From Candidatus Eisenbacteria bacterium (GTDB lineage: Bacteria > Eisenbacteria > RBG-16-71-46 > JAFGJU01): a stretch of DNA of 64,000 nt. Shown here piece by piece: positions 28,542 through 61,591 of this stretch. Below the pieces are notes generated by a model that had not been told where the DNA came from, did no database searches, and was given only the letters and a program-made list of their open reading frames with translations. The stretch is from contig JAPLKG010000004.1 of NCBI GenBank assembly GCA_026388185.1, positions 1 through 64,000 on the forward strand, read 5' to 3'. Numbering within the stretch: position 1 is the stretch's first letter; every line of letters starts with the position of its first letter. The position numbers and the translations under genes are program-made.

Positions 28542-30638
28542 GTGGCAGAAAACGAGTACGTACAAGTAGCCTTTCCAATACCAATTCTCGACACCTTCAC
28601 TTACATCGTGCCTGAGCACCTTAGGGGCAAGGTTGTGCCGGGTTCTCACATCACAGCCTTTCTCGGCAGGCGCAGGCTCTCCGGATTTGTCGTCGGCACC
28701 GAACCGCGCAGTGAGCTCAAAAGCGTGAGACCGATCGAATCGCTCGTAAGGCCGGAGCCCGCCATCGACGCTACCACGCTCGAGCTTGCAGGAAAGGTTG
28801 CGGACTACTATCTGTGCCCGTTGGGAGAGATTCTGGCCGCCGCGTATCCCGCCCACGCCGACAAGGGTTTGCGTACTCAGGCCAAAGGGGAAGGAGCGCC
28901 TGGCGACGAGACTGTCGCCGGGGCGATCAGCGGGATCGAGGTGGGGCGCAGGATGGGGACAGTCAGCGGGACGACAGTCGGGCGTAGGGTCGCGGTTTCC
29001 TCCAAAGACTTCCCGCGCGACCACGATATGGAATCGGATTTGGCGACATATTTTAAGCCACTCCTCGACGCCTCCGGACGAGGAGCACATCGCGTCTTTC
29101 TCCTCACTTTGCCAGACCGAGTTCGAGAGAGAATGTATCCCTTCTTAGTCAGTCAGGTCAGACAGGCCGGTGGAAGTGTGATCTTTCTGGTACCGGAGAT
29201 CTCTGCCTCCGGTGACCTGGTGGAGCTCTTGAAAGAGCGCTTCGGGGACGAAGTGGCGCTCTTCCACAGTAGGCTCAAAATCTCGGAGAGAAAGGCAATC
29301 TGGGAGAATACTCGCTCCGGCATGCTGAGAGTTCTAATCGGAACACGCTCGGCAGTCTTTCTTCCCGCTCAAGACCTCAGGCTTATTGTTGTTGAAGACG
29401 AGCATGCTGAGCCGTTCAAGCAGGAAGAAACGCCGCGCTACAACGCGAGAGACGTGGCCATTATGAGAAGCCGCCTCGCCGGAATACCTCTGTTGCTGGC
29501 TTCCGCCACGCCTTCCGTTGAGAGTTTCTGGGCCGTCAGGCAAGGCGAGTTTGAGCTTCTCGGCGGTGCACCTCTCAAGGCGACCCAGCCAGGAATCAAC
29601 GTCGTTGACATGAGGAACAGGGAGAACGTGATTCCCCAATCGGAGGAGCTTTCCGTGCCTCTCATTTCGGCAATGGAGAAAGCGCTCGAAGCCCGCAAGC
29701 GAGTCCTGCTTTTCTTGAATCGGCGGGGGTTCCACAGGTGGGTGCAGTGCCAGGAATGCGGATTCCTGGAAGTCTGTCCGCGTTGCGAGCTTCCTCTCAT
29801 CTTTCACTCTGACACCAAGAAGATGGCTTGCCACCACTGCTCCCACGAGATGGAAGCACCGTCCTCTTGCGGAAAATGCGGCGGCACCCGCTTTCGATAC
29901 GTCGGGGCAGGCGTGGAAAAAGTGCAGACCAGACTCAAGAGATTCTTCCCCGACGCCAAAGTGGCGAGGATCGATCTTGACTCTGCAAGAACCAGAGCCG
30001 AAGCAGTTCGGATCGCCGGGAATTTCTCGGGAGGCGAGCTCGACATTCTCATCGGAACGACGATGGTGACCAAGGGGCTGGATCTGGGCGAGATCTCTCT
30101 TGCGGGGGTGATTCACGCGGAGGCGCAGCTCAACTTGCCCGATTTCAGGTCGGGAGAAAGGGCCTTTCAGCTTCTCTCGGACGTTGTGTCTTTGGTAGGA
30201 GACACATCCGGCGAGGTCATCATCCAGACTTTCAACCCCGACCATCACAGTGTGCGGGCGATATCGCAGCACGAGCCCGGCCTTTTCTACGAACAAGAGT
30301 TGAAAGAGCGAGAAGAGCTTGGCTACCCCCCCTTCTCCACGTTGATTGATTTCCACGTGAGTGGTCCCAAGGAGCCGCAAGTCGTGAAAGTAGTGAAGCA
30401 GATGAGCACTCGCGTCGCGTCTGTCTGCGACAAGGCCGGGGAGGCGATTCACGTCTTGGGGCCGTCTCCTGCAGTTCCCGCCAGGCTCAAGGGACGCTTC
30501 CGCTGGCACATGAGTATGAGGGGCCAAGCGCGGGATGACGTCGTCGATGCGGCGAAGGAAATCCTGTCGGAGTTCGGTGGAAAGCATGAGGTAGCAGGAG
30601 TTACCATAAGTGTAGACGTGGACCCGGTGGGGAGTTAG
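28542..30638 (+). CDS. priA: PriA-like primosomal protein, ATPase motifs lost
   Basis: About 698 residues. PriA normally restarts stalled forks by loading DnaB. The N-terminal DNA-binding domain (VAFPIPILDTFTYIVP), the eight Zn-binding Cys (CQECGFLEVCPRCE, ACHHC, CGKCGG) and the C-terminal domain are present. The Walker A loop, usually GxTGSGKT, reads LLTLPDRVRERM, and the motif VI Arg pair, usually QVAGRAGR, reads DVVSLVGD; motif II is VEDEH. It should therefore not hydrolyse ATP, as also known for actinobacterial PriA, and may act as a structural loader. The GTG at 28542 is a guess; the frame extends to 28506. Confidence 0.88.
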   Translation: MAENEYVQVAFPIPILDTFTYIVPEHLRGKVVPGSHITAFLGRRRLSGFVVGTEPRSELKSVRPIESLVRPEPAIDATTLELAGKVADYYLCPLGEILAAAYPAHADKGLRTQAKGEGAPGDETVAGAISGIEVGRRMGTVSGTTVGRRVAVSSKDFPRDHDMESDLATYFKPLLDASGRGAHRVFLLTLPDRVRERMYPFLVSQVRQAGGSVIFLVPEISASGDLVELLKERFGDEVALFHSRLKISERKAIWENTRSGMLRVLIGTRSAVFLPAQDLRLIVVEDEHAEPFKQEETPRYNARDVAIMRSRLAGIPLLLASATPSVESFWAVRQGEFELLGGAPLKATQPGINVVDMRNRENVIPQSEELSVPLISAMEKALEARKRVLLFLNRRGFHRWVQCQECGFLEVCPRCELPLIFHSDTKKMACHHCSHEMEAPSSCGKCGGTRFRYVGAGVEKVQTRLKRFFPDAKVARIDLDSARTRAEAVRIAGNFSGGELDILIGTTMVTKGLDLGEISLAGVIHAEAQLNLPDFRSGERAFQLLSDVVSLVGDTSGEVIIQTFNPDHHSVRAISQHEPGLFYEQELKEREELGYPPFSTLIDFHVSGPKEPQVVKVVKQMSTRVASVCDKAGEAIHVLGPSPAVPARLKGRFRWHMSMRGQARDDVVDAAKEILSEFGGKHEVAGVTISVDVDPVGS

Positions 30639-40215: not shown

Positions 40216-40259
40216 CGGGGGCCGACGGCCGATCGTGCGCCTCCGCCTGGTAACACTTG

Positions 40260-42176
40260 ATGTCCAGAAAAAGCGTAGTCATAGGGACTGCAGGTCACAT
40301 CGATCACGGGAAAACGGCCCTCGTGAGGCTGCTCACCGGTATTGATACGGACCGATTGAAAGAAGAGAAAGAAAGAGGCATTTCAATCGACCTCGGTTTT
40401 GCGCATCTTTCCCTTCCCTCCGGCATAGAGGCCGGGATAGTGGACGTGCCGGGGCATGAACGTTTCGTGCGAAACATGCTGGCCGGAGCCGGCGGCATCG
40501 ACATCGTTCTATTCATCGTGGCTGCGGACGAAGGCGTGATGCCGCAGACTCTAGAGCATCTCAACATAGTCAATATACTTCGCGTCCACGGCGGCGTAGT
40601 TGCCCTCACCAAGATTGACCTCGTCGACGCCGCCTGGGTGGAGATGGTTCGTGCGGACGTGGCGTCGCTTGTCGCAGGCACGGTGCTCGAAAATGCACCC
40701 ATTGTTTCCGTCTCTTCCACCTCGGGAGAGGGAAAAGAGCAGATTGTGAAGGCTCTCGATGCGGCTGCCGGCAAGGTCCCGGAAGTTTCGACTGCCGACT
40801 TTGTTCGGCTGCCGATTGATAGGGTCTTCACCGTCGAGGGGTTCGGGACGGTGGTCACCGGCACGCTCTGGAGCGGTCGAATCAAGGTCGGAGACAATCT
40901 GGAAGTAATTCCCCGGGACAAGAAGGTCAGAGTCAGAAACGTTCAGGTTTTTGGAAGAGACGTACCAGACGTGCTCGCGGGTCAGAGAGTGGCGCTCGCC
41001 CTGCATCCGATCTCTCGTGAAGAGCTGGTACGCGGAGACTGGCTTGTGACACCGGGGGCCGCGAGTCCCACGTCTATGGTTGACGTGAGATTCGAGTTTC
41101 TCAAAGATGCTCCCAGGCCCCTCAGGACCAAGAGCAGACTCAGGTTTCATCTGGGGGCGAGCGAAGTCATCGGCAGAATCTATTTTCTCGATAGGGAAGA
41201 GCTGAGATCCGGAGAGAGTTCGTTTGCGCAGTTGAGACTCGAATCTCCAGTTCTGACGGCGGAAAGCGACCGATTTGTGATTCGTTCCTACTCTCCACAG
41301 ATCACCATCGGCGGAGGCAATGTCCTTGTCTCTCACAGTTCGAAGCACAAGAGTGGCGACACGGGCGCGGTCGATACCCTCACGCTCATCGAGCGCGGTT
41401 CTCCTCTGGAAAGAGTGGAGCACGCGGTCAGGGTTTCGGCAGAGAAGGGAGTGGACATTTCTGCACTTCCACGCCTGGCCGGCGTCGAGGCTTCGCGAGT
41501 GGACGAAGCCCTGCGGATGCTGAGCGAAGAAGGGAGACTGCACGCGGCCGGAAACGTCTTTCTGCATCGTGATTCTCTCCACGCGCTCATGGATGAGGTC
41601 GCCGGCTGCCTCAGGGAATATCAAGAACAACATAGGTCCAGGTGGGGAATGACGAAGGGAGAGCTCAGGAACAGATTCGGAAGAATCTCCGGCGACGTTT
41701 TTTCGAGCGTTCTTGATGGCCTGGTGGCAGAGAGGAAGCTCTTCGTCAAGGAAGACAAATTCAGAATGGACTCCCCCGGCTTCAGTCTTTCCGAGGAAGA
41801 GACTCGGCTCAAGAACCAGATCGAACAGAGGCTCGCGCAAGCCGGCTTCAACGTACCTTCCGTGAAGGAACTCGCGCCTCCCGAGAGGCAGCGTGAGGCC
41901 GGCGATCTCCTGCAGATTCTCGTCGAGGAGGGGAAGGTCGTCAAGGTGACGGCGGAGCTGTTTTTCCATTCGGCGGCGCTGACGGAAGCGGAAAAGCGCG
42001 TCAGAGAATTCCTCTCGAAGAACGAAAAACTCCAGGTCGCCGACTTCAAGGATTTGATAGGCGTGACGAGGAAGTTCGCGGTCCCGATTCTCGAACATTT
42101 TGACAGGAAGGGCATAACGAGGAGACAGGGAGACGTGAGGGTCGCCGCGGATGCTAGAGCGACGGGTCGAGGGTAG
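40260..42176 (+). CDS. selB: selenocysteine-specific elongation factor SelB
   Basis: 638 residues. Carries Sec-tRNA to UGA codons marked by a SECIS element. G1 is [15 protein letters not shown]2 lies in [14 protein letters not shown]3 is [10 protein letters not shown] and G4 is [11 protein letters not shown]-Tu-like domains 2-3 and the C-terminal winged-helix array (~370-638) that binds the SECIS are present, so it is full length. No selA, selC or selD and no recognisable selenoprotein lies in this window. Next to it, ispG starts right after the stop codon. Confidence 0.95.
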
Positions 42177-45702: not shown

Positions 45703-46032
45703 TAGTTAGATGAGGATACACCCAGCTTGTTTCTGCTCAAGCCCCCGATTTCCCCACAATACCGTACACAATTCCATCCTGATTTGGTGTTGCTTCTTGG
45801 CCAAAGACGTGATATCATTATGTTGGTTTGGGGTCGGTACGTGTTGACGGCGGATAGTATTATTAATTAGTTCACTCACGACGCCGGCGGAAAAACCAGA
45901 AGGTCGCCCACGACGGGTGATTCTGTATACTTTTCTTGACCGCATTCTGATGCGAAGACGATTTTTGTTACTCTGCCTGGGTAACAACAGCGTAAGGCGA
46001 CGTTGACGGTGGCAGGTCTCCGGAGGTTCATG
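45703..46032. other. intergenic region
   Basis: No gene is seen. An AT-rich stretch lies at about 45857-45871. I could not place a promoter with good spacing. Confidence 0.3.
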
Positions 46033-49000
46033 ATGCGTCTTTCAAGCGCGCGTGGCAGGCGTACGCCTGTGTTCTCGCGGCTGGCGAGACTTCTCTCTCC
46101 TCTCGTTTCCCCTCTTGTCTTGTCCTGGATTTCCCTCCTCCTGCTCATCCTTGTCGCCTCTCAGCCAAGGGAGGTCAGGGCAGATAGCGCGACCTGGTGG
46201 AACTACTCGTATGGGTACCGACAGCAGCTGACTATTTCCAACAATAGTACCTCTGTCCTGCCGGCCGGCTATTCGGTTTCTTTGTCTTTGGATCATTTCT
46301 CGCTGGTCGAAGCAGGCAAGTCCTTGGCCAATGGTAACGATGTCAGAATAGTCTATTGGAATGGCTCAACTCATACGGAGCTGGACCGAGTCAATGAGCT
46401 AGGCTGGAACACGGCAGGAACCAATGCTCAAATCTGGTTCAGGATCCAGGCCGACATTGTGGGAAGTGGCACGGATGACGGCTATTTTCTCTACTACGGG
46501 AACAGAGATGCAGGTGCGCCGCCAGCGGACAGGAAAAACGTCTACGAGTTCTTTGACAATTTCTCAGACTATGACACAAGACAATACGACACCTCGGTGC
46601 CCGGAACCACCGACGTGATAGGAAACGGAGACGAACAGGCTTGGAAGGTTCAGTCAGGGACCTGGAACATCGAGAACGATGCGCAAGCTGACGGGACAAC
46701 GGGCAAAGTCCTCAGTAGCGATTGTGTCTCCGGGCTTTACGACTACGCTTACGTGCTGAACAAAAACTACGACAACGTCCTGGTCGAAGTGAAGATGAGA
46801 ACTAAGAGTGGGGAGAATGGCGGGTATTGGCCCTTCGGCGCCCGTCTTGATACGTTGACTGGAGCCAACTACACCGCTTGGAGCTATGCCACTTACAGCA
46901 AGATGTTCCGGTACTCAAGTTGGTCGTCACCCACCGCTTTGGTTACGGGTACGACACGGTCGGGTATGAGCAACAATTGGCACACTCTTAGATTCACGCT
47001 GGACGGGACAAAACTCAATCTGTACTTCGATGGCGTCAGCTACGGCTGTTATGTGGAGGACGCGACTTTAACTTCGGGCACCATCTTTGCCGTGGGGTCT
47101 GCCAGCCGGAAGATGCACTTCGACGACTTCAAGGTGAGGAAATACGTGACCGACGAGCCAAGCGTTTTGGCCGCCGCGGAAGAGGAGGGCTTGGCAAGAC
47201 CGATAGTCTCCTTGAACAAGAAATGGCGCCTGAAGGGCGATCTTCACACACCCACCGATCAATACGTCAGTTTCAGTGTCAGCTTCCCCGAAGGTGAAGG
47301 AATGACAGAGGCGCAGGGAAGCTACGAAATTCTCGAAGCAGACCTGAGCGGCGCACTCTCACGCACCGGTCCAACGAGCTGGGAAGGCCAGGCAGACATT
47401 TCGGGTCTGGAGACGGGGACTTTTCATCTGGTGGTCACAATAGGCGACGCGACCCAACAATCCAGCTCGGACCCGGCCGTTTTTCGTATCTCCTATCCCT
47501 TCTACCACGTCTGGACGATTGACTGGGAAGGGGGATACGTGCCCACGTTTCCCTATCTGGACAGCCTGGCTGCGCTGGCGGACGAGCACGAGATGCCTGT
47601 GTGTCAGTTTTTCAATCCGCGCATCTATGTGTATCCATATCTGGCTGAGTGGCAGAGGGCTCAGATGACGCAGTGGGTCTTGCAGAGGGCGCAGACCAGG
47701 GGAGACGAGATCGGCCTCCACCTGCACATGTACGCCGACTACGTGGAAGCCGTGGGCATCACACCGATCATGTCTCCTCACTGGGCTAATCATTCTGACG
47801 GGTACGACGTTCCTTTCGCCGCCTACGATTACGAGCAAAGCCTTGCTCTTCTTGACTTGGCTGTGTCGCTGTTTCAGGCAAAGGGTCTTGGTACGCCTTC
47901 GTCTTTCAGAGCCGGCGGCTGGTTTGCCGACGAAGAGAATCTGCAGGCGCTCTGCGAGCGGGAGTTCCTCATAGATGCCTCCGGGTGTATTTCCAGTACG
48001 ACGGGCAGCCTTCCCAATTTATGGAGCCTTGGCGTCACGTCCCAGCCGTACCATCCCTGCCCGGAAGACAAGAACACGTCAAGCTGCCAGCCGGAAGACG
48101 CTAATCTTGTGCTCTTGGAGACACCGAACAATCTCGGCGTAACTAGCGGCACAGTGGACCGAAGACCGTACTTTAACGCGAATTATTCCGGCGCCCCTCT
48201 TGCCTCCGTGCGCGTCGGAGTGCTCCTCAGTCACGCCACGTCAGCCACCGGGGCCGAGGGGGCGATGATCGAGCAGTACTTCGCTCATGTTGATAGCTTC
48301 CTCTACGCCGCCGACAAGGGCGCCGTAGTATATGTCACACTAGCCGACGTGAGGGAGGCGCTTTCGGTTTTGCCTCTCGAGCCGCCAGATTTCCTGGGGC
48401 CGCCGGATCTTGTCTCGGGCGAACTCATCCAGCAGATCGGCGAGTCGTTCACTTTTCGGATTTACGAACCTGACTCTCTCGAGTTGGTGAAGTATCGAAT
48501 CCAGATATCGCAGGCTCCCGACTATGACTACGACACTGGCATGGTTGTGGATTACGTGAGCGGACTCGACCCGCAAGGGACCTTCGGCTTTGCAGTGGGC
48601 CAGTCCGAGTCGACCGGCACCTATCATCGCGGGGCCGAGTGGCAGAGTCTCTCCCCTGGGTCTTACTATTGGAGAGTGATGGCGATTGATTCCGAAGGAC
48701 ACTACTCGCGGTGGAGTCTGGCCCGCGATGGCAACGTGGCATTCATGATCGAACAGCCGGAAGGTGTTGAAGGCGGACAGAATGCAAGCCCGGTTCCACT
48801 CGCTGTCAGTTTCTGTAACCCATCCGGACCGAGTGTATTCTTGAAAGCCCAAGTTCCCGTCGCGGGTAAAGCAACCTTGAGAATTTTCAACTGCTCGGGC
48901 AGACTAGTACGCACGCTGCCTCTGGACGGCCTTTCTGCCGGTGCGTCCGGTCACTACTGGGATGGGAAGAACTCCGAAGGGCTGTCGGTCTCGTCGGGCG

Positions 49001-49065
49001 TTTATCTCGTTGAACTGAGTCAGAGCGGACGGGCGGTGACCAAGAAGCTCGTGCTGGTGAAGTAA
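46033..49065 (+). CDS. large exported protein: DUF2341, deacetylase-like, FlgD-like
   Basis: About 1010 residues. The ATG at 46033 has GGAGG six bases upstream; the ATG before it is also possible. A long signal peptide precedes WWNYSYGYRQQLTISN, the start of a DUF2341 domain. Next is a lectin-like region (NWHTLRFTLDGTKLNLYFDG). The middle ~300 residues look like a NodB/GH57-type deacetylase (TIDWEGGYVP, GLHLHMYADY, FRAGGW). The C-terminal ~70 residues are a FlgD/T9SS-like Ig unit (KATLRIFNCSGRLVRTL; DGKNSEGLSVSSGVYLVEL). Probably a surface enzyme acting on polysaccharide. Confidence 0.85.
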   Translation: MRLSSARGRRTPVFSRLARLLSPLVSPLVLSWISLLLLILVASQPREVRADSATWWNYSYGYRQQLTISNNSTSVLPAGYSVSLSLDHFSLVEAGKSLANGNDVRIVYWNGSTHTELDRVNELGWNTAGTNAQIWFRIQADIVGSGTDDGYFLYYGNRDAGAPPADRKNVYEFFDNFSDYDTRQYDTSVPGTTDVIGNGDEQAWKVQSGTWNIENDAQADGTTGKVLSSDCVSGLYDYAYVLNKNYDNVLVEVKMRTKSGENGGYWPFGARLDTLTGANYTAWSYATYSKMFRYSSWSSPTALVTGTTRSGMSNNWHTLRFTLDGTKLNLYFDGVSYGCYVEDATLTSGTIFAVGSASRKMHFDDFKVRKYVTDEPSVLAAAEEEGLARPIVSLNKKWRLKGDLHTPTDQYVSFSVSFPEGEGMTEAQGSYEILEADLSGALSRTGPTSWEGQADISGLETGTFHLVVTIGDATQQSSSDPAVFRISYPFYHVWTIDWEGGYVPTFPYLDSLAALADEHEMPVCQFFNPRIYVYPYLAEWQRAQMTQWVLQRAQTRGDEIGLHLHMYADYVEAVGITPIMSPHWANHSDGYDVPFAAYDYEQSLALLDLAVSLFQAKGLGTPSSFRAGGWFADEENLQALCEREFLIDASGCISSTTGSLPNLWSLGVTSQPYHPCPEDKNTSSCQPEDANLVLLETPNNLGVTSGTVDRRPYFNANYSGAPLASVRVGVLLSHATSATGAEGAMIEQYFAHVDSFLYAADKGAVVYVTLADVREALSVLPLEPPDFLGPPDLVSGELIQQIGESFTFRIYEPDSLELVKYRIQISQAPDYDYDTGMVVDYVSGLDPQGTFGFAVGQSESTGTYHRGAEWQSLSPGSYYWRVMAIDSEGHYSRWSLARDGNVAFMIEQPEGVEGGQNASPVPLAVSFCNPSGPSVFLKAQVPVAGKATLRIFNCSGRLVRTLPLDGLSAGASGHYWDGKNSEGLSVSSGVYLVELSQSGRAVTKKLVLVK

Positions 49066-50012: not shown

Positions 50013-51881
50013 TCAGGGTGGGGTCGATTTCGGTTTTCGCGGCGTGACCATCAGAAACCTCTCGCGAGCACAAGTGGCGAGGCCCGGGCGCGCGCCTCTT
50101 GGCTTGTGCACATATTTCTTCTCGGTGTAGATGACCGGCACACCCGAGGAGGTCCTTCCCTTGCTGAAATAGGCCGCAACGGAGGCGGCCTCTTCTATTG
50201 CCCTGCGCGACGGCGCGGACTTTCCCTTCTTCTTCAGCACCACGTGCGAACCCGGCATGGCCGATGCGTGAAACCAGAGGTCTTCGGGCTTTGCCAGATG
50301 GTGGGTGACGTAGTCGTTTTCCTTGTTGTTCCTTCCAACAATTATGGTCATGCCGTCTGAAGTCTCGAAGGTGCGAGGGTTGAACGTGGCCCCGGATTTC
50401 ACCTCGGCTCCGGGTTTTCGCGCAGCCGTTGAACCGCGCACTCGCCCGGAGAGTCGGTCCAATTCGCGAGAGACTCTTTCGGACTCCTCTGCGTCAACCT
50501 GTTCGGGAATGTCTTCGCTGAATTCCTCAATTACCTGGAGCGAGCGCTCCACGGAGGCAGCTCTCTTCTTCAAGAGAGCGAGCGCCCTCTCTGCCTTTCT
50601 GGCCTTCTTGAAGTACCGCTCGGCGTTATCCGTGAGAGAAAGCGCGGGGTCGAGCTTGACCTTGACCAGAGACTGTCCGTCCACGTGAATGTCCTTGAGT
50701 TCGACAAGAGTGCTCCCTCGTCTCAAGGTTCCAAGATTGGCAAGGATCAGTTCTCCCGTCCTTCTGAACTCGTGAGCTTGCTCGGCTGACGAGAGATCTT
50801 CCAGAAGTGAGGCCCTCAGCCTGCCCAGTTTGTCTGAGAGAGCTGCTGCATGCTCCTTGAGTCGCGCGGCAGAAAGGCCCCTGTACCAGCGGCACAGCCC
50901 GAAGAACGAGAAACGCACGGCCTCCGACGCCGCCGGAAAGCACTTGAGAACACTTGTGGCTGCCGGCGTTGTGTCAGTGCTCCCCGGTTCTGTCTCTGTG
51001 AGCGAGGGTCTTGTCTTGACATACACGGGCAGCAACGAAGGGGGTTCAATCAGGCCTGACGCGGCAATCTTGCCTGAGCGCCGAGAATGTTCGTCCGGCC
51101 GAGCAGCGGTTTCCATGACCGCGGGGCAGAAATGCCTGTCTGGTTCGGCAAGAGCTTCCCCGAGCCCTTTACGTAAGTCTTCCGGCGTGAGGCGTCCGCA
51201 TGAATGAAGATATTCGATGACACCCTCGGCAGCGTGCGGACTAAGCCCCTTGAGTCGCCGCGAAAGGGCGAGACACAACTCTCTGCGGCCCGCCTCCGAA
51301 TCAGCTCCTTCCATCAGTGTGTGCAGGGCGTTGAGTGAGAGTTCTCCAATGCTAAGTTTGTGTTCTTGCGAAGGAGGCGCGTACTTCTCTCCGGGCCGTA
51401 GAAGAATGCCGGCCGAAGACGTTGTCCCCTCGCGGCTACAGGCTTCTATCGCATTTCCATCACTCCTTACAAGAACTGCGCTGGGCCTTCGGCCGAAAAG
51501 TTCAAGCCAGAGCGAGAAGAGGGGCCGGTCCTTGTTTGAAGCCGCGGCAAACTCTATCTTCACCACTCTGTCTGCGTCGTGTTGCTCCAGGGCGTGGAGA
51601 ACGGTTCCGCGCAGTCTCTCCGACGCCGACTGGACGAAGCCCTCGGGCAGAGTCTCGGCGGGCGTACTCAATACGAGTCCGAGTGCCGGCGCCTCGAGGG
51701 AAAACAGTGCGGGAAAGCGCGAGGCGAGACAAATCACCAGCAACGAAGAGGTGTCGTGCCCCTTCTTTTCTAGCTCGACGGCGAAACTCATGGGCGCCAG
51801 ACCGGTGACGGCCTTCACGGTCGAGCCCAACAATTCGTTCGAGAGTTCCTTCACGAGCAAGGCCAGGATCAGGTTTTCCAT
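50013..51881 (-). CDS. rqcH: RqcH/NFACT ribosome quality-control protein
   Basis: 622 residues; the start at 51881 has AGAGAG upstream and skips a longer frame to 51968. The N-terminal NFACT-N segment is MENLILALLVKELSNELLGS. A central coiled coil (FKKARKAERALALLKKRAAS) and the C-terminal NFACT-R domain (GRNNKENDYVTHHLAKPEDL, then WFHASAMPGSHVVLK) are present. RqcH binds 50S subunits with stalled chains and adds C-terminal Ala tails. Also annotated as a fibronectin-binding protein. It is the only minus-strand gene between 10 and 64 kb. Confidence 0.93.
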   Translation of the reverse strand: MENLILALLVKELSNELLGSTVKAVTGLAPMSFAVELEKKGHDTSSLLVICLASRFPALFSLEAPALGLVLSTPAETLPEGFVQSASERLRGTVLHALEQHDADRVVKIEFAAASNKDRPLFSLWLELFGRRPSAVLVRSDGNAIEACSREGTTSSAGILLRPGEKYAPPSQEHKLSIGELSLNALHTLMEGADSEAGRRELCLALSRRLKGLSPHAAEGVIEYLHSCGRLTPEDLRKGLGEALAEPDRHFCPAVMETAARPDEHSRRSGKIAASGLIEPPSLLPVYVKTRPSLTETEPGSTDTTPAATSVLKCFPAASEAVRFSFFGLCRWYRGLSAARLKEHAAALSDKLGRLRASLLEDLSSAEQAHEFRRTGELILANLGTLRRGSTLVELKDIHVDGQSLVKVKLDPALSLTDNAERYFKKARKAERALALLKKRAASVERSLQVIEEFSEDIPEQVDAEESERVSRELDRLSGRVRGSTAARKPGAEVKSGATFNPRTFETSDGMTIIVGRNNKENDYVTHHLAKPEDLWFHASAMPGSHVVLKKKGKSAPSRRAIEEAASVAAYFSKGRTSSGVPVIYTEKKYVHKPRGARPGLATCARERFLMVTPRKPKSTPP

Positions 51882-52326
51882 TCGGTCTCTCTTCTCGGCG
51901 AAGCAATGTCGCAAATCTTCAGGCCGTGGAATCAAGCGACCCGGGTACGCCGCCGCTTGGTTTACCAAAGCAGTCTATCAAAGCCGCGGTTCGGTGACTA
52001 GTCCCTGTCTCAAGATTGCGCGCGAGCCGAGCCGTTCACGTGGCAGTCTGACACGGACTCCGAAACCACGCGGGAACTCCACGGCCAACTTTCGGATTGA
52101 CACGTGGCTCCACGTCTCTTACAGTAAGTAGGTCGACGCTTTGCGAGAAGTTGCCGCCGCGTGCGAAGTGGGTGCGTTCCCGGCTCTCCTCGTGAGGCCC
52201 ACGTTTTCTGCTATCATAGGCCTCTCCTTGGAGTTAACCTCCGATTGCGGGTGCGACGGTACAGGAGTCTTCGGCTCAAGTCTTCCAGTCTGAGGGAGCA
52301 CGACGAGCCCGGGGAGGAAAGCTTCT
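51882..52326. other. divergent intergenic region
   Basis: Between rqcH and yicC, read outward. A TATCAT (about 52213) could be a -10 for yicC, but no -35 fits. No RNA gene or repeat is seen. Confidence 0.3.
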
Positions 52327-56267: not shown

Positions 56268-57632
56268 ATGAAAGCTCAGGAACTCGACACAACGCTGGGT
56301 AGGGTGCCGCCGCAATCCATAGAGGCCGAGCAGAGTGTACTCGGTGCGATGCTCATCGATGCAAATGCCGTGGGCAAGTGTCTCGAGCTCATCAAGGAAG
56401 ACGGTTGTTTCTACCGCGAAAGCCACAGAAGGATCTTCCGCGCCATCACCACCATCCATGACAGGGGAGAACCGGTAGACCTAATCACGCTCGGGGAAGA
56501 GCTCAAGAAGAAGGGAGAGCTTGAGCAAGTGGGCGGCGCTTCGTATCTGGCCTCACTCTTTGAAGAGGTGGGCACCGCCGCAAACGTCGAGTACTACTGC
56601 CGCATAGTCTTGGAAAAGGCCACTCTCAGAAAACTCATTGACGCCGGAACGACAATCGCGACCGACGCTTACAGCTCGAAAGAAGAGTCGGTTTCGATTC
56701 TCGACAGAGCCGAGCAATTGATATTCGGGATATCCGATACCAAGATGAGGCGCGGCTTCGTGGCCCTTCGCGACATCCTGGGACACAGTTTCGAAGTGAT
56801 CCAGGAACTTTACGACAAGAAGAAACATGTCACAGGAGTGGAGTCAGGCTACATCGAGCTCGATTCGATGACGGCCGGCTTTCAGTCCTGTGATTTCGTG
56901 GTCGTCGCGGGGCGGCCTTCAATGGGCAAGACCAGCCTTTGCATGAACATAGCCGAGCACGCCGCGATCAGGTCCAAGGTGCCGGTGGGAATATTCAGTC
57001 TGGAAATGTCCAGAGAGCAGGTGGTCTTGAGGATGCTCTGCTCCGAGGCGCGCGTGGATGCGCACAGACTGAGAACCGGATATCTCAAGGAAGCAGAGTG
57101 GCCTCTTCTGACTACCGCCGCGGGCCAACTTGCAAAAGCCCCCATTTACATTGACGATACACCCGCCATGAGCGTGCTCGAGATGCGCTCTAAATCCCGC
57201 AGATTGAAGACGGAAGCGGACGTGGGACTCATAATCATCGACTATCTCCAGCTCGTCAGAGGTTTCGGCGGCGCCGAGAATAGACAACAGGAGATCTCGC
57301 AGATTTCGAGGGCGCTGAAAGCTCTTGCCAAGGAGTTGGAGGTGCCGGTGATTGCTCTTTCGCAGCTTTCGAGAGCAGTCGAGTCGAGAGGCGGAGACAG
57401 AAGACCCGTGCTCTCCGACTTGAGAGAATCGGGTGCGATCGAACAGGATGCGGACGTTGTGATCTTTATCTACAGACCGGAGGTCTACGAGCGTACGGAC
57501 GAAAACAGGGGTAGAGCGGAGCTCATCATCGGCAAGCAGAGGAACGGCCCGATAGGCACCGTAGGCCTCACGTTCATAAGTGAGTACACGCGATTTGAAA
57601 GCATGTCCAGGCTTCCCGAGGAGCCCTTCTAG
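56268..57632 (+). CDS. dnaB: replicative DNA helicase DnaB
   Basis: 454 residues. N-terminal helical domain with PPQSIEAEQSVLGAMLID, linker, and RecA-like motor with Walker A GRPSMGKTS, Walker B LIIIDYLQL and the Arg finger region. Hexameric helicase that opens the fork. No intein is visible. Interesting here because its usual loader partner PriA in this genome has lost its ATPase motifs. Confidence 0.96.
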   Translation: MKAQELDTTLGRVPPQSIEAEQSVLGAMLIDANAVGKCLELIKEDGCFYRESHRRIFRAITTIHDRGEPVDLITLGEELKKKGELEQVGGASYLASLFEEVGTAANVEYYCRIVLEKATLRKLIDAGTTIATDAYSSKEESVSILDRAEQLIFGISDTKMRRGFVALRDILGHSFEVIQELYDKKKHVTGVESGYIELDSMTAGFQSCDFVVVAGRPSMGKTSLCMNIAEHAAIRSKVPVGIFSLEMSREQVVLRMLCSEARVDAHRLRTGYLKEAEWPLLTTAAGQLAKAPIYIDDTPAMSVLEMRSKSRRLKTEADVGLIIIDYLQLVRGFGGAENRQQEISQISRALKALAKELEVPVIALSQLSRAVESRGGDRRPVLSDLRESGAIEQDADVVIFIYRPEVYERTDENRGRAELIIGKQRNGPIGTVGLTFISEYTRFESMSRLPEEPF

Positions 57633-60202: not shown

Positions 60203-61591
60203 ATGAAAGTCCAGAAGAAGATAGTCTTTGTTTGCCAGAATTGCGGTTACGAAAGCGGGAAGTGGTTCGGGAAATGCCCCACCTGCGGCGAGTGGAACTC
60301 CTCCATCGAGGAGGAGAGAAGAAAGACTAGAGAAAAGTGGGTGGAGGGCGGCATCGCCCTGAAGCAACCCAGGCGTCTCGAAGACATTTCTGACTCGGAA
60401 GTCGAGAGAATTGCCACTGGGATCGACGAGTTCGACCGGGTACTGGGCGGTGGCCTTGTGCACGGCGAGCTCGTGCTGGTTGGTGGTGACCCCGGCATCG
60501 GAAAATCCACGCTCTTGCTGCAGGCGCTAAGCAAGCTGGTCGAGAACGGACAGGCCGGCTTCTATGTTTCCGGCGAAGAGAGCGAAGCGCAGACGAGGAT
60601 GAGAGCTCGAAGGCTCGGCGCGCTTGCCAAGGATCTGTACGTAAGTTGCGAGACTGACGTTAGCGTGATCCTGAACCAGCTTTCCGAGCTCAAGGTGGCT
60701 GCTGCGGTCATCGATTCCGTCCAAACGGTATACGATCCCGACCTCGACGGCTCTCCTGGGAGCGTGGGCCAGATCAGGGAATGCGGCCTCAAGTTTCTGA
60801 ATTTCGCAAAGGCCCATTCCACCGCCATTTTTCTCGTAGGACACGTGACGAAGGAAGGCGCCGTGGCGGGCCCGAGAGTGCTCGAGCACATGGTGGACGC
60901 GGTGCTCTATCTCGAAGGAGAAAGGTATCAGAACTATCGGGTATTGCGGGCGGCCAAGAACAGATTTGGCTCGACAAACGAGATAGGCGTTTTCGAAATG
61001 GACCAACGCGGACTCAGGGAGGTGACAAATCCCTCCCGGGTCTTTCTTTCCGAGAGAGACTCGGGTGTTTCCGGTTCCGTCGTGGTTAGCAGCATAGAGG
61101 GAACAAGGCCTTTGCTGGTCGAGCTTCAGGCTCTGGTGTCGCGCTCTGGATATGGTTTTCCTCAAAGAGCGGCCACGGGCTACGATGCCAGGAGGCTTTC
61201 GGTACTCCTGGCGGTGCTCGAGAAAAGAATGGGGCTCAGGTTGGGTTCCATGGATGTTTTCATAAACGTGGCCGGCGGGATAAGGCTTGACGAGCCAGGC
61301 AGCGATCTCGGACTTGTTGTCGCAGTCGCTTCCAGCTACAAGGACACACCAGTCAAGGCTCACACGGCGATGGCCGGGGAAGTCGGGCTCGGCGGTGAAG
61401 TAAGAAGAGTGTCACAGATCGAGCAGAGGGTCAAGGAGGCCGCAAAGCTTGGATTCGAGAGAATAATCGTTCCCTCCGGCAATGTTTCCGACGTCAGTTC
61501 GATCAAGGAAATCGAAATCGTGGGTGTGGACGACGTGAGAGGTGCAATCAACCGGACTTTGGAGAAATCGAAAGTTGAAAAGAAATCCTGA
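60203..61591 (+). CDS. radA: DNA repair protein RadA
   Basis: 462 residues. N-terminal zinc finger (CQNCGYESGKWFGKCPTCGE), RecA-like core with Walker A GGDPGIGKST, the KNRFG motif in AAKNRFGSTNE, and a C-terminal Lon-protease-like domain without protease function. Promotes branch migration in recombination. Overlaps the likely ispD start. Confidence 0.96.
   Translation: MKVQKKIVFVCQNCGYESGKWFGKCPTCGEWNSSIEEERRKTREKWVEGGIALKQPRRLEDISDSEVERIATGIDEFDRVLGGGLVHGELVLVGGDPGIGKSTLLLQALSKLVENGQAGFYVSGEESEAQTRMRARRLGALAKDLYVSCETDVSVILNQLSELKVAAAVIDSVQTVYDPDLDGSPGSVGQIRECGLKFLNFAKAHSTAIFLVGHVTKEGAVAGPRVLEHMVDAVLYLEGERYQNYRVLRAAKNRFGSTNEIGVFEMDQRGLREVTNPSRVFLSERDSGVSGSVVVSSIEGTRPLLVELQALVSRSGYGFPQRAATGYDARRLSVLLAVLEKRMGLRLGSMDVFINVAGGIRLDEPGSDLGLVVAVASSYKDTPVKAHTAMAGEVGLGGEVRRVSQIEQRVKEAAKLGFERIIVPSGNVSDVSSIKEIEIVGVDDVRGAINRTLEKSKVEKKS

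Follow-up and report, generated by a model that had tools for sequence, protein, structure and literature searches.

A predicted PriA pseudohelicase in a Candidatus Eisenbacteria family and evidence for repeated loss of the PriA motor

We analysed a 64,000-nucleotide stretch of DNA from Candidatus Eisenbacteria bacterium (the window), which carries a full-length priA gene of 698 codons at 28542-30638 on the plus strand, with a GTG start at 28542 and a stop codon that ends at 30638; the open frame around the gene extends back to 28506. The 698-aa product scored 473 bits against the TIGR00595 (priA) profile, for which the cut-off is 230, and this places it in the PriA family. Its score against NF004066 was 548 bits (cut-off 813), compared with 193 bits for the best of the PRK14873-type models, which we take to be actinobacterial PriA, a helicase-deficient form according to the first-pass annotation, and the narrower equivalogs of the NF004066 type all scored below their cut-offs. 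PriA_3primeBD, Zn_ribbon_PriA and PriA_C followed one another in that order, each above its Pfam gathering score. A second, canonical priA, which the first-pass annotation had raised as a possibility, did not appear above the TIGR00595 cut-off in a profile search of the whole genome (a 20-contig draft of 2.62 Mb that is 97.9% complete), and the remaining matches to this profile were short and below the cut-off.

Two other genes for replication proteins lie in the window. The replicative helicase DnaB, presumably the final client of PriA-dependent loading, is encoded at 56268-57632 (+; PF03796 and PF00772), and the fork-processing helicase RadA/Sms at 60203-61591 (+; TIGR00416, 592 bits). dnaB had been described as near priA; it is indeed in the window, but about 26 kb away rather than adjacent. 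Three genomes of the family were compared: that of the window (G000), a draft that is 88% complete (G001) and a single-contig assembly (G002), in which dnaB is syntenic and 85% identical. MlaE and MlaD genes in the window, together with Omp85/BamA-family proteins in both G000 and G002, make the lineage look diderm, as had been proposed. In each of these two genomes an Omp85-family match adjoins a UvrD helicase match (G000:C11:390008-391375 and G002:C1:1363918-1365510). The window also encodes a SelB elongation factor (40257-42176), suggesting selenocysteine use, an NFACT (RqcH-like) protein on the minus strand of a mostly plus-strand stretch (50013-51968) and a 1020-residue protein (46003-49065), its only match being to a FlgD-type Ig domain at the C terminus; tRNA genes were not found in this stretch.

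The motifs with which PriA binds and hydrolyses ATP are damaged. Motif I reads FLLTLPDRVRERMYPFL, compared with FLLxGVTxSGKTEVYL in the class (over a shorter stretch, FLLTLPDRVRERMY compared with FLLxGVTxSGKTEVY). The former Walker A within it, LLTLPDRVRERM at 29100-29135 (+), contains no G-x4-GK[ST]; GxxGxGK[ST] is absent, the loop has a one-residue deletion, and the columns for S193, G194, K195 and T196 are all lost. At the former Walker B (motif II; 29394-29405, +), EDEH replaces DEEH through D285E and E286D. Position 167 no longer holds the glutamine of the Q motif. Motif alignment of the former motif VI (30180-30203, +) placed DVVSLVGD opposite QVAGRAGR with a two-residue deletion; the stretch is LLSDVVSLVGDTSG, compared with LLTQVAGRAGRG in the class, and departs from the consensus Q-V-x-G-R-[AS]-G-R. 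Motif V is also changed (GTTMVTKGLDLG), with Q507 and F515 lost, but much of it is retained, as are motif III (SATPS), motif Ia (PEI) and E287 and H288 of the DEAH box. The first-pass annotation had reported the losses in Walker A and motif VI, which the alignment confirmed and which recur in G002, but had not listed those in the Q motif or Walker B. A search of every forward frame of the gene found neither GxxxxGK[ST] nor GR[AST]GR, which excludes misalignment or a hidden frameshift, and we rejected the idea that a P-loop lies elsewhere in the gene. Given the alteration of all motifs needed for these two steps, we predict, in agreement with the first-pass annotation, that this PriA lacks normal ATP binding and hydrolysis.

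The 3' DNA-binding, zinc and C-terminal domains are preserved, and the retention of DNA-binding and zinc regions reported in the first pass held up under domain scoring. The 3' DNA-binding domain (3'BD; 28563-28856, +; residues 8-105) matched PF17764 with 73 bits over residues 8-103 and was modelled with a PriA-like order of strands and helix, with pLDDT mostly 76-94. Y21, G34 and G48 of this domain are retained, along with R299, Y300 and R309 of the loop after motif II. The Cys-rich region (CRR; 29748-29879, +) exceeded the cut-off for PF18319 and retains all eight zinc cysteines (residues 403, 406, 412, 415, 430, 433, 443 and 446), which were invariant in every group that we counted, dead or canonical. 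The C-terminal domain (CTD; 30267-30632, +; residues 576-697) matched PF18074 with 63.7 bits. An AlphaFold model of the whole protein (pLDDT 80, pTM 0.82) preserved the two-lobe PriA fold, and its closest PDB structure was the fork-bound E. coli PriA 8fak (TM 0.78/0.85). The window PriA thus shares with canonical PriA from E. coli and Klebsiella (8fak, 4nl4 and 6dgd) the 3'BD, two helicase lobes, the eight-cysteine CRR, the CTD and the fold of the whole protein, and differs from it in having neither an ATP site nor a winged-helix domain. The winged helix, a common but not universal domain between the 3'BD and lobe 1, is replaced by a short disordered linker (28857-29066, +; residues 106-175; pLDDT below 50 at 108-159). 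It looks absent from the canonical PriAs of the class too, in which the end of the 3'BD and motif I are mostly 43-52 residues apart, compared with about 100-200 in most other PriAs, and its absence would therefore not be diagnostic of the family. This spacing is short in the canonical class PriAs L003, L005 and L016 and also in the dead PriAs of Atribacterota. Loss of the winged helix may have preceded loss of the motor.

The only other family genome with a priA match was G002, in which gene order is conserved, the protein is 58-60% identical and the motif losses are the same. A profile search of the G001 draft found no match. In that genome the copy of the upstream sensor-kinase gene stops 225 bases from a contig edge, and as the assembly is 88% complete, its priA most likely lies outside the assembly; we therefore set aside a loss of priA in G001. 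Between the two family PriAs pN was 0.26 and pS 0.74, and in each domain pN was far lower than pS, from which we conclude that the gene is maintained; we report pN and pS rather than a dN/dS ratio because synonymous sites were saturated. Purifying selection still acts on priA, including its DNA-binding, zinc and C-terminal parts. The losses are concentrated at the motor: among 104 columns with 95% or higher conservation across 35 canonical PriAs, 18 were lost in both family PriAs, comprising 10 of the 11 ATP-site columns, as we ourselves assigned them, and 8 of the other 93 (Fisher p 1.7e-8). Identity between the family pair was 58% in helicase lobe 2 and 65% in the DNA-binding domains, whereas 35 canonical pairs with similar identity in the DNA-binding domains had a mean of 80% and a minimum of 73% in lobe 2, indicating that constraint on the motor has relaxed while the binding domains hold. 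PriA also diverges faster than most of its neighbours (other window genes are 43-93% identical between G000 and G002, with a median of about 73%), and part of its divergence could be from general relaxation. This faster divergence, like the missing match in G001, would be expected if priA were a decaying gene on its way to loss in a lineage that restarts replication without PriA. We consider such decay quite unlikely, because the 698-codon frame is intact, the cysteines are invariant and synteny is kept, in addition to the selection seen in all domains.

A natural PriA without a motor has a biochemical precedent. The PriA of D. radiodurans has no ATPase or helicase activity, yet binds forks and DnaB (Lopper et al. 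2015, PMC4504706); like the window PriA, it has damaged Walker A and B motifs, keeps its DNA-binding parts and belongs to a diderm host. The first-pass annotation, which implied that a diderm example was new, was thus anticipated by these assays of 2015, and the Atribacterota PriAs, dead by sequence, are a further case. The two proteins differ in the extent of damage: Walker A changes from GKT to GRT in Deinococcus-Thermus PriAs, whereas in the window PriA replacement extends to the entire loop, the Q motif and motif VI. The activity assays belong to the Deinococcus protein, and the window PriA is known from its sequence and predicted structure. In E. coli, PriA without ATPase activity can still assemble primosomes (PMC4504706), and PriA-PriB restart in vivo needs neither the ATPase nor the helicase (PMC10175261, PMC4504706).

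Some degenerate P-loop enzymes bind or use ATP at a rearranged site, and the window PriA could conceivably still do the same. The retained SATPS, PEI, E287, H288 and much of motif V could be read in this way, as could the partial conservation of the lost loop between the two family PriAs (LPD..RE.MYP). However, Walker A has lost its lysine and threonine, Walker B its aspartate, the Q motif its glutamine and motif VI its arginine, all at once; the loop is also one residue shorter and motif VI two residues shorter, and the single change K230R is enough to abolish the ATPase of E. coli PriA (PMC4504706). We therefore regard continued ATP use as very improbable. We think it quite probable instead that this PriA was inherited vertically, that its ATPase went in the ancestor of the family and that the protein was kept as an ATP-independent scaffold for replication restart. 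The purely structural restart role proposed in the first-pass annotation is the best account of these data, and we infer it by analogy with the assayed proteins.

If this PriA acts as a restart scaffold, the pseudohelicase would recognize an abandoned fork, with the 3'BD on the end of the nascent leading strand, and the helicase lobes, CRR and CTD would close a pore round the single-stranded DNA of the lagging strand. In 8fak, lagging-strand DNA runs through a pore made of the CRR, lobe 2 and the CTD, and the docking face for PriB is exposed on the CRR (PMC10175261). The zinc region of the window PriA would likewise expose a docking surface, and DnaB would be recruited and loaded with DciA. 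Any unwinding of the nascent lagging strand that is needed might be carried out by other helicases (of the UvrD/PcrA type, RecG or RadA), and UvrD-family helicases are present. DciA was found in G000, in G002 and in all five other genomes tested; its carriers include the controls Thermus and Deinobacterium. The first-pass annotation had suggested looking for an extra loader; a domain search found no DnaD/DnaB-Bsu-type domain, and nothing unusual was seen. Nearly all bacteria keep the PriA helicase, although E. coli can live without it, and independent natural losses offer a comparative test of the purpose of the motor and of which parts of PriA are essential. The evidence suggests that what is essential is fork recognition together with the zinc docking region, and that restart runs through DciA without a PriA motor.

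Where the motor was lost was addressed within the class. Outside the family, 42 of 44 class genomes had a PriA match; motif I was intact in all 40 in which the stretch is assembled, and the other two matches are fragments in which motifs II and VI are intact. In a tree built without the motif columns, the family falls inside its own class (the starred branch, 17 rows). As the motors of the class are intact and the family lies inside it, the loss of the motor is the family's own. The family could also have received an already dead PriA, by descent or by transfer, from a different lineage without the motor, for example Atribacterota, in which three compared PriAs (L036, L041 and L042) have lost 9 of the 18 conserved columns that the family has lost. 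A single clade of the window family and the dead Atribacterota PriAs was rejected by an AU test (p 0.011), although the same test was marginal with one extra long-branch row (p 0.058). The shared losses are mostly at the ATP site, as convergence would give, and together with the position of the family inside its own class this leaves an origin from another dead lineage a very small chance. Between the convergent and inherited origins that the first-pass annotation had offered, the convergent one stood relative to the other dead groups. An artefact of sequencing or assembly, to which the 20-contig draft might be thought prone, deserves next to no credence, since it is refuted by the same changes in the independent single-contig G002 and no P-loop appeared in an alternative frame. 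A big tree joined the most degraded PriAs at its base, a placement that carries a long-branch warning and is unreliable, so the count of losses is only a lower bound. These comparisons support at least two independent losses of the motor; further losses are likely but not proven.

Recurrence was apparent in other bacterial groups. The Atribacterota PriAs L036, L041 and L042, and their relatives, resemble the window PriA in having lost Walker A, the Q motif and motif VI, in keeping the CRR cysteines and in having no winged helix; they differ in their separate place in the tree and in that the Walker B aspartate survives in some of them (DQEH). We searched 101 genomes centred on one Atribacterota. 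Within roughly the first 50 genomes of the list, each PriA that we examined had dead motifs. PriAs from L064-L081, nearer genome relatives of Atribacterota, are without Walker A and motif VI, and in L092-L108 the helicase core is scrambled (FDPEEKG at Walker B) while all eight cysteines are present. The rest of the sample, 51 genomes that include some related at the level of the 'same domain', yielded readable sequence from 46: 40 canonical PriAs, four clearly dead PriA-family proteins (L083, L111, L118 and L119), one that is dead and weakly PriA (L117) and one that is mixed. Three of the four clearly dead proteins are above the TIGR00595 cut-off, and L118 matches the three PriA Pfam domains.

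Beyond the Deinococcus precedent, these sequences add two points: recurrence, as dead PriAs also occur in Atribacterota and in about five scattered genomes, and the fact that the zinc cysteines do not vary in any group counted. A literature search, incomplete in coverage, found no paper on both Atribacterota and PriA, which is a weak sign of novelty. On balance, we lean slightly towards the view that bacteria have repeatedly ended up without a PriA motor. Restart with DciA and DnaB on a PriA scaffold that uses no ATP would then have evolved many times, one case being an entire group related to Atribacterota, some members of which show extreme decay of the helicase core; the unchanging eight-cysteine zinc region may be the irreplaceable function of PriA. 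Some of the scattered genomes with dead PriAs may belong to groups with known loss, such as Deinococcota or Actinobacteria. The mixed protein, L082:1465-3537, keeps a P-loop (GPPRTGKT) but has a changed Walker B (DGEE) and has lost motif VI, and it possibly represents an intermediate stage.
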